Below are positions 5,843 through 48,687 of a DNA stretch of 64,000 nucleotides, piece after piece. The translations under genes and the position numbers were made by a program. The notes beneath the pieces are model-generated. The model did no database searches, was not told the origin of the DNA, and saw only the letters and a list, made by a program, of their open reading frames with translations. The DNA is taken from assembly GCF_002216795.1 (NCBI RefSeq), contig NZ_CP022316.1, positions 3,191,205 to 3,255,204 on the forward strand, written 5' to 3'. Positions within the stretch are counted from its first letter, which is position 1, and each line of letters begins with the position of its first letter. The DNA is from Brachybacterium avium. Lineage in GTDB: Bacteria > Actinomycetota > Actinomycetes > Actinomycetales > Dermabacteraceae.

Positions 5843-6808
5843 ATGGCAGGCAACAGCGCGCGCCGCGGTGCGGTGCGCAAGGGCAAGAAGGGCGCGACCG
5901 TCGGATCCGGCGGTGTGCGACGCCGAGCGCTCGAGGGCAGGGGTCCGACGCCGAAGGCTGAGGACCGTCCGAACCACAAGGCGTACAAGGGCGCGTCCTC
6001 ATCCGGTGGCACCGCTCCGCGGCGCGGGGCCGGCAAGGGGGCGCGGAAGGCTCCCGGCAGCGACCAGGTCGCCGGCCGCAACGCTGTACTCGAGGCGCTG
6101 CGCGAGGAGGTGCCCGCCACTCAGCTGACCGTGATGGTGCGCCTCGACACCGATGAGCGGGTGCGGGAGATCATGCGCCTGGCCACCGCTCGCGGTCTGC
6201 CGGTCGCAGAGGCTGCGCGCACGGATCTGGACCGCATGACCGATCACGCGGTTCATCAGGGTGTGGCGCTGACCATCCCGCCGTACGAGTACGCGGAGGT
6301 CGACGAGCTGCTGCGTATCGCCGCGGATCGCTTCGAACCGCCGCTGCTGGTGGCACTGGACGGCATCACCGATCCGCGGAACCTGGGAGCGATCCTGCGC
6401 TCGGCGGACGCCTTCGGAGCCCATGGAGTGATCCTGCCCGAGCGTCGCAGCGTCTCGATGACCGCGAGCGTGTGGAAGGTCGCCGCCGGCGCGGCCGGCC
6501 GGGTCCGGGTCGCCCAGGTCACCAACCTCAATCGCACCCTCACCTCGTTGAAGGAGAAGGGCGTGTTCGTGCTCGGACTCGATGCCGAGGGCGACGTCAC
6601 CACGCGTGGGCTCGAGCTGGGCACCCAGCCGACCGCCCTCGTCGTCGGCGCCGAGGGCAAGGGGCTGTCGCGCCTGGCCCGGGAGATCAGCGACCAGGTC
6701 GTGTCGATCCCGATGGCCGGACGCTCCGAGTCGCTGAACGCCTCGGTGGCCGCCGCGATCGCTCTCTACGAGATCTCCGGTGTACGCGAAGGCCAGGGCC
6801 TGGGCTGA
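5843..6808 (+). CDS. rlmB: 23S rRNA (guanosine-2'-O-)-methyltransferase RlmB (TrmH/SpoU family)
   Basis: The enzyme 2'-O-methylates a guanosine in domain V of 23S rRNA using SAM. The 321-residue protein has a long basic, disordered N-terminal tail (residues 1-75), a SpoU substrate-binding domain (about 75-155) and the knotted SPOUT methyltransferase domain. Motifs are NLGAILRSADAFG (motif 1), VVGAEGKGLS (motif 2) and IPMAGRSESLNASVA (motif 3). It is 21 nt downstream of cysS and probably co-transcribed with it. Its last codons and stop lie inside the first unit of a 55-bp tandem repeat. Confidence 0.94.
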   Translation: MAGNSARRGAVRKGKKGATVGSGGVRRRALEGRGPTPKAEDRPNHKAYKGASSSGGTAPRRGAGKGARKAPGSDQVAGRNAVLEALREEVPATQLTVMVRLDTDERVREIMRLATARGLPVAEAARTDLDRMTDHAVHQGVALTIPPYEYAEVDELLRIAADRFEPPLLVALDGITDPRNLGAILRSADAFGAHGVILPERRSVSMTASVWKVAAGAAGRVRVAQVTNLNRTLTSLKEKGVFVLGLDAEGDVTTRGLELGTQPTALVVGAEGKGLSRLAREISDQVVSIPMAGRSESLNASVAAAIALYEISGVREGQGLG

Positions 6809-6956
6809 TCGACGTGCTGGCGAGGGACGAGCCGGTAGGAGAGCAGCGGGGCGGCTGGGCTGATCGACGTGCTGGCGAGGGACGAGCCGGTAGGAGAGCA
6901 GCGGGTCGGCGGGGCTGATCGACGTGACGAGCCGGTAGGAGAGCAGCGGGTCAGCG
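6802..6956 (+). repeat. 55-bp tandem direct repeat, three units, spanning the rlmB stop
   Basis: Units begin at 6802, 6857 and 6912 (period 55). Units 1 and 2 are near-identical. Unit 3 lacks a 10-nt block (CTGGCGAGGG) and ends at about 6956, after which a weakly similar fourth start is visible. Unit 1 contains the rlmB stop codon (6806-6808) and unit 3 contains the stop of the convergent YczE-type gene (6951-6953). The array fills the whole convergent intergenic space. It looks like a local tandem duplication of the gene-end junction; no function is evident. Confidence 0.9.
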
Positions 6957-28019: not shown

Positions 28020-28813
28020 GAGGTCTTCTCCTGGGTGCGGGCCGGTGCGGCCGTCGATGAGGGATCCTGCGTGGCCTCCGGCACGGACGCCGCCGCTGTC
28101 GTGGGGGCCGGTTCCGGTTCCGGCTCGATGAGGACGACCTCGAGGCGTCGGGGACCATGCATGCCCTCGACCCGCTCGAACTCGATATTCCTGGTCGCAC
28201 TGGGTCCGGAGATCATGGTCCAGGCCGCAGCGGCGTCCTGGCCCATGCGCTCGATCGCCTTGGGGACGCCGAGCACCACCTGCTCGGACTCCACGACGAC
28301 CACGTGGCGGTCGGGCACCAGGCTGAGCGCACGGCGTCCGCCCCGATCATCGCTGCGCAGCACCAGTGTGCCGGTCAGAGCGATCGCCGTATGGCAGCCG
28401 GTGAGCACCGCATCGAACGCGTCGAGCTCATGCGAGGTGGTGGCCCCGTCGTCGACCACCAGCGAAGCGTCGAGCTGCGTGAGCCAGGCCGCGGGCAGAC
28501 CGGAGGGGACCACCGCGCTGCGCGCCCCGCCCAGTGCGGCGGCGATCGCCGCCGGGGCCGCGGCTGCAGTGGTGCGGTGGACCGTCGCCGCGCAGTCCTC
28601 GAGACGCTGGACCAGCACACCGCGCACCTTCGTGGGGGCGGTGCGGATCTCCTGCTTGTCGTCGGCCCGCTGGTAGGTGCGCGGCACATCGCCGGACTCG
28701 GTGACCTCATCGCGGCGCGGGACCGCGAGCGCTGCCCGCACCCGGGCGAGGATCTCCTCTTTCGCGGTCATCCCCGGGGTGCGTGCGGGGCGGGCGTCCG
28801 TCCACTCGCTCAT
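28016..28813 (-). CDS. lutC: Lactate utilization protein C (LUD domain)
   Basis: This 265-residue LUD-domain protein is the third component of the LutABC L-lactate oxidase complex. Seen: an N-terminal helix with AKEEILARVRAAL and the C-terminal nucleotide/cofactor-like LUD fold ending in GMHGPRRLEVVLIE. The ATG at 28813 overlaps the lutB stop (ATGA); the frame's longer upstream extension is a shadow of lutB. An alanine/proline-rich linker about residues 235-260 ends the protein. Confidence 0.9.
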   Translation of the reverse strand: MSEWTDARPARTPGMTAKEEILARVRAALAVPRRDEVTESGDVPRTYQRADDKQEIRTAPTKVRGVLVQRLEDCAATVHRTTAAAAPAAIAAALGGARSAVVPSGLPAAWLTQLDASLVVDDGATTSHELDAFDAVLTGCHTAIALTGTLVLRSDDRGGRRALSLVPDRHVVVVESEQVVLGVPKAIERMGQDAAAAWTMISGPSATRNIEFERVEGMHGPRRLEVVLIEPEPEPAPTTAAASVPEATQDPSSTAAPARTQEKTS

Positions 28814-30369
28814 GAGTGCTCCTCGTCCGTGGAGCCCGGATCGTGCGCCGGGCCCTGCGCGGCGCGGTCCTTCTCGTGCTGATCCCACCAGGAGCGGAAG
28901 GAAGCGCCGGGCTTGGGCAGATCGCGATGATCGGTCCAGCCCGTCAGCAAGGGCAGCAGCCCGGGCAGCTTGCCGATGTTCTTCCCGGGCAGCACCGAGC
29001 TGAGCGGACCGGCCGAGCGCACCGCGAGGTCGTAGGCGCGGGGCGAGGCCATCAGCGTGCTCGCGCCCCGCAGCGCCACATCCCAGGTGCCGTGGAAGTC
29101 ACCGCGGCTCTCCCGCCGCCGGTCGACATCCTCGGCCCGCAGATGCACGAGCACCTCGGGGATGTTGATCTTCACGGGGCACACGTCATAGCAGGCGCCG
29201 CACAGGCTCGAGGCGTACGGCAGCGTCGAGTTCGGATCATCGCTGCCGTGCATCCCCGTCATCTGCGGTGAGAGGATCGCGCCGATCGGACCGGGATAGG
29301 TGGAGCCATAGGCCTGACCGCCGGTGCGGTTGTAGACCGGGCAGACGTTCAGGCACGCCGAGCACTGGATGCAGTGCAGCGCGCTGCGCCCCTCCGGATC
29401 CTCGAGCACTGCGGAACGACCATTGTCCAGCAGCACGAGATGGAACTCCTCGGGGCCGTCTCCCTCATGGACCCCGGTGAACAGGGTCGTGCACGGGCTC
29501 ATCCGCTCTCCGGTGGAGGAGCGGGGGAGCAGCTGCAGGAACACCTCCAGGTCCTGGAAGCTCGGCACGAGCGCCTCGATGCCGACCACGGAGATGAGAG
29601 TTCTCGGCAGGGTCAGGCACATGCGGCCGTTGCCCTCCGACTCGACGACGACCATGGTGCCGGTGTCGGCCACCGCGAAGTCCGCCCCGGAGATCGCCAC
29701 CGAACCGGGCATCTCCAGGAACTTCTCCCGCAGGAACCGGCGGGCCGCCCCCGCCAGCTCCGCCGGCTCGTCGGTGATCGACGGATCCAGATCCGGCATG
29801 GCCGCCAGCAGGATCTCCCGGATCTCGGACCGGTTGCGGTGGATCGCAGGAAGCACGAGATGGGACGGTGCATCCCCGGCGAGCTGCACGATGAGCTCGG
29901 CGAGATCGGACTCGATCGCCCTGATACCGGCATGGGCGAGCACCTCGTTGAGCCCGATCTCCCGGGTCGCTGACGACTTGACCTTCAGCACCTCCTGGGC
30001 ACCGCGTTCGAGCGCCAGACGGGTGACGATCTCCCCGGCCTCTTCGGCATCGCGCGCCCAGTGCACCACTCCGCCGGCCGCGGTCACGGAGGTCTCGAGC
30101 TGCTCCAACAGCTCTGGAAGATGATCGGTGACCTGCCACTTCAACGCGCTGCCGGCATTGCGCAGCTTCTGCCAGTCGCGCACCTCGCGCACCGCCGAGG
30201 CGCGTTTGGACTGGATCGTCGAGGTGGCGTGACGAAGGTTCTCGCGCAATCTCCCGTCGCCGAGCTCCTCCCGCGCCGCCTCGGGGAAACTGCGCCCACC
30301 GCGCAGGTGCGAGCTCGGGGAAGCGTGCTGCGGACGAACGGTCGGGATCCCGAGATCCACTGAGCTCAC
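28810..30369 (-). CDS. lutB: Lactate utilization iron-sulfur protein B
   Basis: The 519-residue protein combines an N-terminal LUD domain (about 60-310) with a ferredoxin-like region bearing two 4Fe-4S motifs, CIQCSACLNVCPVYN and CGACYDVCPVKINIP. It passes electrons from lactate to the respiratory chain with LutA and LutC. The GTG at 30369 has GGGAGGAG a few bases upstream, and that site lies within the 56-bp tandem repeat. It is the second gene of the operon. Confidence 0.93.
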   Translation of the reverse strand: MSSVDLGIPTVRPQHASPSSHLRGGRSFPEAAREELGDGRLRENLRHATSTIQSKRASAVREVRDWQKLRNAGSALKWQVTDHLPELLEQLETSVTAAGGVVHWARDAEEAGEIVTRLALERGAQEVLKVKSSATREIGLNEVLAHAGIRAIESDLAELIVQLAGDAPSHLVLPAIHRNRSEIREILLAAMPDLDPSITDEPAELAGAARRFLREKFLEMPGSVAISGADFAVADTGTMVVVESEGNGRMCLTLPRTLISVVGIEALVPSFQDLEVFLQLLPRSSTGERMSPCTTLFTGVHEGDGPEEFHLVLLDNGRSAVLEDPEGRSALHCIQCSACLNVCPVYNRTGGQAYGSTYPGPIGAILSPQMTGMHGSDDPNSTLPYASSLCGACYDVCPVKINIPEVLVHLRAEDVDRRRESRGDFHGTWDVALRGASTLMASPRAYDLAVRSAGPLSSVLPGKNIGKLPGLLPLLTGWTDHRDLPKPGASFRSWWDQHEKDRAAQGPAHDPGSTDEEHS

Positions 30370-30425
30370 GGCGGCATCTCCTCCCGCTCGTTCCTCGCAG
30401 TTCGTCGACCGACGCTGGTATTCAC
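30366..30425 (-). CDS. Possible 19-residue coupled mini-ORF (copy 2)
   Basis: GTG at 30425 to a TGA that overlaps the lutB start (GTGA). It would encode the arginine-rich peptide MNTSVGRRTARNEREEMPP. Its start overlaps the stop of mini-ORF copy 1. It has its own GGGAGGAG ribosome site because the repeat includes one. Whether the peptide matters is unknown; it may only pass ribosomes on to lutB. Confidence 0.35.
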   Translation of the reverse strand: MNTSVGRRTARNEREEMPP

Positions 30426-30481
30426 GGCGCCATCTCCTCCCGCTCGTTCCTCGCAGTTCGTCGACCGACGCTGGTATTCAC
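30370..30481 (-). repeat. Two tandem 56-bp repeats between lutA and lutB
   Basis: Two 56-bp copies (about 30370-30425 and 30426-30481), differing at one or two positions, fill the lutA-lutB junction. Each carries a GTGA stop/start junction and a GGGAGGAG ribosome site. The period (60 nt ORF minus a 4-nt overlap) is exactly what keeps the stop-start chain intact. Confidence 0.9.
30422..30481 (-). CDS. Possible 19-residue coupled mini-ORF (copy 1)
   Basis: GTG at 30481 overlaps the lutA stop (GTGA). The frame encodes MNTSVGRRTARNEREEMAP and ends at the TGA that overlaps the start of copy 2. It differs from copy 2 only near the C-terminus. The chain lutA-mini-mini-lutB is therefore linked by three successive 4-nt overlaps. 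Confidence 0.35.
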   Translation of the reverse strand: MNTSVGRRTARNEREEMAP

Positions 30482-31263
30482 GGCGCCCTGCCCAGGATGG
30501 TCTCCGCCGGGATGAAGGGATCCTCCTTGGTCGAGGCGAGGATCTGCGCGAGATGCACGGAGCGCGGCGAGGCACCTGTGCGGCGCAGCTTGCCGCCGAT
30601 GTTCATCAGGCACGAGGCGTCACCCGCGACCACGAACTCAGCACCGCTGCGCACCACGTTCTCGGCCTTGTCCGTCACCATCGCATCGCTGGTGGCGTCA
30701 TTCTTCACCGAGAAGGTGCCGCCGAAGCCGCAGCATGAATCGGACTCGGGCAGGTTCTTCATCTCCAGGCCCTCGACCGCACGCAGCAGCTTCAGCGGTC
30801 GCGCCCCCACCTTGAGGAAGCGCATCGAGTGGCAGGTGGGATGGTAGGTCACCGAGTGCGGGAAGTAGGCGCCGACATCGGTCACCTTCAGCACGTCCAC
30901 CAGCAGCTCCGAGAGCTCATAGGTCTTCGCCGCGACCGCTGCGGCACGCTGTTCGAGCTCGCTGTCGCCCTCATGCCGCGCCACCAGCTGATGCTGATCG
31001 CGCACGCACCCGGTGCAGGAGCCAGAGGGCATCACGATCGCATCGACCGACTCCAGCGCCGGTTCGAAGGTGTCGACGAAGGAGCGCACGATCGGCGCCG
31101 CTTCGGTGTAGTACCCGGAGTTGGTGTGCATTTGGCCGCAGCAGGTCTGCCGCTTGTCGAACACCACCTCGTGGCCGAGCCGTTCCAGCAGGATCACGGT
31201 CGCCCGAGCCACATCCGGGGCGACCACGTCCACCAGGCACGTGGTCATCAAAGAGATGCGCAT
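30478..31263 (-). CDS. lutA: Lactate utilization protein A, CCG-domain Fe-S subunit
   Basis: A 261-residue protein with two CCG motifs, CCGQ (about residue 41) and SCCGFGG (about 195), which bind an iron-sulfur cluster as in GlcF/LutA. It is the presumed first gene of the lactate-oxidation operon. The ATG at 31263 is preceded by AAGGAGGAAGG with a 7-nt spacer, while the frame's longer extension lacks homology. No GntR-type LutR gene lies next to it. Confidence 0.92.
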   Translation of the reverse strand: MRISLMTTCLVDVVAPDVARATVILLERLGHEVVFDKRQTCCGQMHTNSGYYTEAAPIVRSFVDTFEPALESVDAIVMPSGSCTGCVRDQHQLVARHEGDSELEQRAAAVAAKTYELSELLVDVLKVTDVGAYFPHSVTYHPTCHSMRFLKVGARPLKLLRAVEGLEMKNLPESDSCCGFGGTFSVKNDATSDAMVTDKAENVVRSGAEFVVAGDASCLMNIGGKLRRTGASPRSVHLAQILASTKEDPFIPAETILGRAP

Positions 31264-31351
31264 CCGCCGGCCTTCCTCCTTGTCGCGGTCCCGGTCCGAT
31301 CTGATCGTGCCCACCCACCTCTGCCGAGGCCCGGTGGGCCCTGAGAGCCTC

Positions 31352-48611: not shown

Positions 48612-48642
48612 GAGCGACGCGCCGCGTGCGATGGCTCGCTCC

Positions 48643-48684
48643 GGCACCCGGCACCCGGCACCCGGCACCCGGCACCCGGCACCC
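48643..48684 (+). repeat. GGCACCC x6 tandem heptanucleotide repeat
   Basis: Six uninterrupted 7-bp units in the 76-nt space between two convergent genes (stops at 48611 and 48688). Such arrays change length easily by slippage. Confidence 0.92.
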
Positions 48685-48687
48685 GGT

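Follow-up and report, generated by a model that had tools for sequence, protein, structure and literature searches.

The junction between a lutA-like and a lutB-like gene in a 64,000-nucleotide stretch of Brachybacterium avium DNA (contig NZ_CP022316.1; this whole stretch is called the window below) carries a short tandem repeat. Both genes lie on the minus strand, the lutA-like gene, with a CCG domain in Pfam, at 30478..31314 and the lutB-like gene, with LUD_dom and LutB_C in Pfam, at 28810..30369. Between them lie two 56-bp copies (30366-30421 and 30422-30477) with a spacing of 56, which are 98% identical with a single mismatch; Tandem Repeats Finder reports 2.2 copies across 30366-30487. 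Three 4-nt GTGA overlaps link lutA, two small open reading frames (mini-ORFs) of 19 codons plus stop, and lutB. In particular, the TGA stop of lutA (30478-30480) falls within the first GTGA, mini-ORF 1 (30422..30481, minus strand, translation VNTSVGRRTARNEREEMAP) shares 4-nt overlaps with lutA and mini-ORF 2, and mini-ORF 2 (30366..30425, minus strand, translation VNTSVGRRTARNEREEMPP) shares them with mini-ORF 1 and lutB, whose start is in the third GTGA. The repeat units as delimited by the covariance model R1 (see below) occupy 30423..30473 (unit 1, minus strand, 64.5 bits) and 30367..30417 (unit 2, minus strand, 59.1 bits), and each copy, as read from its letters, contains the Shine-Dalgarno-like GGGAGGAG, at 30434-30441 and 30378-30385, respectively. 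These coordinates and translations bear out the original prediction of two 56-bp copies with a ribosome site and GTGA overlaps. A 22-nt core with up to three mismatches occurs twice in the window and in none of 100 shuffles, so that the two occurrences are not due to chance.

LutA was matched in 32 of 38 genomes of the genus, and 30 lutA-lutB loci from 30 species were retrieved; G006 was left out of this set, its LutA match being only 51% identical. An unbroken chain of 4-nt overlaps is kept at all 30 junctions, in structural agreement with the coupling of lutA, the two mini-ORFs and lutB that had been proposed from the window. At 20 of them lutA and lutB overlap directly without any insert, and the units are thus not needed for coupling. 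Family units are present at seven junctions, two each in L004, L007 and L009 and one each in L005, L006, L018 and L019; one more unit stands between lutA and lutB in G027 (locus L105), where the LutA match is in two pieces. The comparison of relatives that had been suggested therefore yields 0, 1 or 2 units, and copy number does differ among species, as had been anticipated. That one- and two-unit forms are found at this junction in other assemblies as well makes an assembly error an unlikely source of the doubling. Three further junctions (L008, L010, and L017) have an unrelated insert that keeps the chain with different peptides. The insert of L008 contains an 18-codon frame, which gives 53 nt, the same as the commonest unit length, and it may be a decayed family unit. 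The 4-nt coupling at one operon junction has outlasted several separate insertions. L018 and L019 have, besides their single unit, an extra segment bearing a long inverted repeat (CTGCGGTGTCGTTGC ... GCAACGACACCGCAG in L018), and their overlap chain is intact as a single 43-codon frame.

A dispersed family in two gene contexts

A search for similar arrays in the same genome revealed two further places, and a 23-nt core with up to three mismatches has matches in 23 of 38 genomes of the genus, with none for the reversed control. The core matches led to a set of 76 arrays, located at 75 loci and comprising 144 units (1-7 per array); units with more than five mismatches cannot found an array, by which rule L121 was excluded, and one match on a short contig, G026:C402, was left out. 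The covariance model R1, built from 70 units, detects 36 units in the same genome at E<=0.01, 150 of 6182 first-look candidates having been scored. The window itself has five R1 matches at E<=3.4e-5, two at lutA-lutB and three at 6800-6952, and the next match has an E-value of 0.046. The array thus belongs to a genome-wide repeat family, contrary to the earlier option of a local one-off duplication.

Apart from the lutA-lutB copies, the window has one more long-period tandem repeat, at 6800-6952, an array of the terminal type defined below. It begins at the TGA stop (6806-6808) of a gene for a SpoU-family RNA methylase (Pfam; 5843..6808, plus strand) and consists of three units on the plus strand, 6800-6852, 6855-6907, and 6910-6952, the third without part of the core. 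In the 15 of 30 fetched loci where the methylase 3' end could be read by a tail motif, the element is present in five (L262-L265 and L275) and absent in ten. In another case, a scaffold has two units and a B. paraconglomeratum locus to which it is 96.5% identical has three. The window also contains a perfect 7-bp tandem repeat, CCGGCAC x 6.6, at 48641-48686.

Exact-type copies occur almost only in Brachybacterium. An exact-pattern scan of 84,980 species returned 59 stretches, all titled Brachybacterium save four: L180, from a metagenome-assembled genome (MAG) titled Candidatus Nesterenkonia, and L181, L189, and L205, all from one Actinomycetales MAG. In L180 the element is at the same junction as in a Brachybacterium locus that is 87.6% identical over 2.9 kb, and this likeness suggests that L180 is possibly misbinned. 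A looser pattern matched 27 of 47 genomes of the family, all in one of its six genera, with one control match (G007). An order-wide search of 396 genomes with R1 at E<=0.001 gave matches in 25, of which 17 belong to the genus and eight do not. Spread outside the genus was rejected, as these eight match at only E 3.9e-5 to 8.8e-4, and inspection by eye of L141-L148 revealed no tandem or TGA-anchored repeat, L142-L144 being one shared coding stretch. A plasmid search gave no match to the element. Three records titled UNVERIFIED Bacteriophage sp. do match it (L292, L293, and L294); two of them share 96.5% and 99.0% identity with Brachybacterium loci across 3.1 kb, and are therefore probably misfiled chromosome. 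Judged from listings, no paper on the element is apparent in the literature on Brachybacterium with interspersed or tandem repeats. At stop codons in L252, L257, L259, L261 (same genome), and L140 we observed a variant of the core whose second half resembles TGCGAGC (TGCGAGC-TTGCGAGC type) and which perhaps represents another subfamily.

The arrays occupy two contexts. We defined as terminal those with a TGA at core positions -2 to 0 that closes at least 60 codons, and as coupled those with D-TGA just past the last unit that opens at least 45 codons. By open frames, 42 of the 76 arrays are terminal, 29 are coupled, at ATGA or GTGA overlaps, and five are neither; typing by letters gave 29 coupled and 47 non-coupled, and typing by the letters before the core 30 and 46. 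Among the 47 non-coupled arrays, 42 start at a TGA closing at least 60 codons, compared to 156 of 396 CTGA sites of the window (p 1.4e-12), a baseline that is unmatched for intergenic position. A chain of 4-nt overlaps into the downstream gene is found in 28 of the 29 coupled arrays. The script that followed the chain entered upstream of the gene's own stop at L037, L044, L051, L068, one L081 array, L099, L102, and L104, and a direct mini-ORF is visible at all these loci. Coupled unit frames are mostly 17-20 codons long; longer ones occur in L067 (37 codons) and in L040 and L049 (43 codons).

The two contexts differ at core position 26: a T there, giving TAG in the mini-ORF frame, is found in 35 of 42 terminal arrays, and the 29 coupled ones have G (24) or A (5) and no T (Fisher p 1.5e-13). 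Similarly, periods of 2 modulo 3 were observed in 12 of 14 coupled versus 11 of 26 terminal arrays (p 0.017). Across the 29 coupled cores, differences from the consensus number 20, 8, and 9 of 290 at the three codon positions; there is no third-position excess, and the peptide is therefore probably not what is kept.

Outer stem and flanks

In a structural alignment of 70 of the 76 first units, an outer helix of 8 bp pairs core positions -5 to 2 with 31 to 38, and an inner helix pairs 7-12 with 22-27. The two helices are paired in 84.0% of cells, compared to 74.3 ± 0.7 in shuffles, and 110 cells are changed on both sides, compared to 45.0 ± 4.9. The two inner pairs closest to the outer helix are formed in just 38 and 37 of 70 units. 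An inner hairpin proposed at first, one pair of which did not form in 59 of 70 units, was superseded by the 7-12/22-27 helix.

The arms of the outer stem are complementary at each site, with differences in the host-side arm followed by the other arm. Pairing at positions -1 to -5 was compared with that obtained by exchanging the 3' arms among sites: in units that are coupled-like by their letters (class M) it is 85/130 versus 69.7 ± 3.9, a value reached by 1 of 10,000 shuffles, and in terminal-like ones (class S) 94/115 versus 79.3 ± 2.8, reached by 0 of 10,000. At the five positions from -1 to -5 the pairing in terminal-like first units is 0.93, 0.96, 0.98, 0.93, and 0.74, dropping to 0.15 at -6, and it is weaker in coupled-like first units (0.57, 0.87, 0.73, 0.70, and 0.47). 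In terminal arrays the last letters of the host gene form part of the 5' arm, and the 3' arm therefore follows the host. The two units at lutA-lutB lack four and five of the eight outer pairs, and their folding does not differ from that of shuffles (z 0.08 and -0.07); four other units have z of -1.8 to -3.6.

The longest exact match between the two flanks of an array averages 7.9 nt, compared to 5.5 when the partners are exchanged (200 such means did not go beyond 6.0), reaches 17 nt in L055, and contains TGA in 55 of the 76 arrays. Such flank repeats would be a trace of insertion with target duplication, or could be one of unequal exchange.

Interpretation of the junction

In our opinion, the lutA-lutB junction probably contains two tandem units of a Brachybacterium short interspersed element that is tolerated within the operon by a translational relay. 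Comparison of loci establishes the anatomy of the units, their dispersal, their presence or absence at given sites and the conservation of the overlap chain. The element would spread through insertion at TGA or stop-start overlap sites, and its units would multiply via slippage or unequal exchange. A coupled unit has its own GGGAGGAG and a frame that is open from the upstream stop to the next start, and a ribosome ending lutA could then re-start on each mini-ORF in turn and finally on lutB. Since its own ribosome site and mini-ORF keep the chain unbroken, the insert would be tolerated in the operon; insertions that break the chain would be lost, and the mini-ORF would be a relay rather than a source of a working peptide.

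Several observations weigh against this interpretation. One coupled array, L084, keeps no overlap chain, two others have periods of 54 and 55, and the longest flank match lacks TGA in 21 of the 76 arrays. The arrays share ancestry, so that the p-values given above overstate their independence, and the distinction between terminal and coupled may reflect no more than a split into two old subfamilies. Presence and absence are seen only between species, with no fresh insertion caught. As for mobility genes, Y1_Tnp was found in 0 of 38 genomes of the genus and RVT_1 in 1 of 38, these two being the only mobility families searched.

One alternative is a structured RNA element, such as an mRNA-end or protein-binding site, that is selected for its hairpin and kept at gene ends for a function, not left there by insertion. 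The excess of pairing over shuffles, the strong covariation and the sharp limit of the outer stem at core -5 all argue for it, and yet the lutA-lutB units miss half or more of their outer pairs and fold no better than shuffles, the copy is absent in many species, and within terminal arrays pairing is lower in the later units than in the first (203/245 versus 209/230). Moreover, six loci contain no Rfam family at threshold, the two matches obtained being far below it, and on balance we regard such an element as unlikely. We are similarly doubtful, if slightly less so, of a bolder version of insertion, in which the element is mobile by an undescribed route, targeting stop codons and stop-start overlaps, and the end of the host gene is read or copied at every insertion. 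The 3' stem arm would then match, as reverse complement, the final codon of the target together with TGA, either because it becomes so through templated fold-back synthesis at the junction or because base pairing guides the choice of stop codons. The same host-complementary pattern of the arms would also be explained if the hairpin were selected for once inserted.

A regulatory dial, in which the lutA-lutB units persist for their effect on the LutB:LutA ratio, set by one or two re-initiation steps and tuned by copy number, would agree with the variable copy number at this junction and with the coupling kept in 30 of 30 cases. Nevertheless, two thirds of the junctions (20 of 30) have no insert and the same units stand at many unrelated genes, making the dial improbable; neutral tolerance of the units fits better, and the family as a whole cautions against taking such an array as a single-locus expression dial. 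Far less probable is a functional arginine-rich small peptide encoded by the mini-ORFs, for although the frame stays open in coupled copies, the codon-position differences listed above have no third-position excess, and in L008, L010, and L017 the chain is intact although the inserts encode other peptides. The near-identity of the two copies (98%) would fit a single, neutral tandem duplication, confined to this site, of a 56-bp segment that belongs to no wider family; as a full account it is refuted by relatives elsewhere in the genome and genus and by single-unit forms at the same junction, leaving it hardly any probability. Duplication of a unit stays part of the explanation preferred here, that of an interspersed element tolerated by translational relay.

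Comparison with known repeats

Repetitive extragenic palindromic (REP) elements, which are associated with RAYT (Y1) transposases, are short intergenic repeats that form hairpins. The Brachybacterium element shares these traits, and its terminal type is also REP-like in bearing GTAG near a stem. However, PF01797 (Y1_Tnp) is found in none of the 38 genomes of the genus, compared to 5 of 14 control genomes, and the coupled copies, unlike REPs, contain an open frame that is linked to the genes on either side.

The closest known kind is the mycobacterial interspersed repetitive unit (MIRU), reportedly described by Supply et al. in 1997. The Brachybacterium element is likewise interspersed and variable in tandem number, with its 144 units in 76 arrays of one to seven, and in 28 of the 29 coupled arrays, as at all 30 lutA-lutB junctions, the chain of -4 overlaps with the neighbouring genes is unbroken. 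According to a 2025 review, MIRUs appear mobile and insert at start codons, with an inner ORF coupled at -4 nt (PMC12548453). In another paper, promoter activity is reported for the MIRU-bearing senX3-regX3 region (PMC4213456), and for that reason a promoter was looked for at 30250-30650 of the window; the promoter and terminator scan of this segment found none, a scan that itself expects almost none.

A mycobacterial core (up to two mismatches) matched 23 of 394 genomes of the class, 13 of them in one genus (g112), which we take to be Mycobacterium. The mycobacterial-type loci have periods near 51-55, positions at gene ends and start sites, and GAGGAG. Their arms look nearly fixed by eye in most of the 13, whereas those of the Brachybacterium element vary with the host site. 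When the cores were aligned with this mycobacterial core, the score was reached by 101 of 3000 dinucleotide shuffles for the coupled type and by 269 of 3000 for the terminal type. The Brachybacterium element belongs to another genus and has another core, and none of its exact-pattern stretches is titled mycobacterial; it may or may not be homologous to MIRUs, but judging by its organization it works like one. The means by which MIRU-like repeats disperse, and what draws them to stop-start overlaps, are to our knowledge unsolved; a non-mycobacterial family with host-tracking arms and many empty sister sites makes these questions testable in ordinary bacteria.
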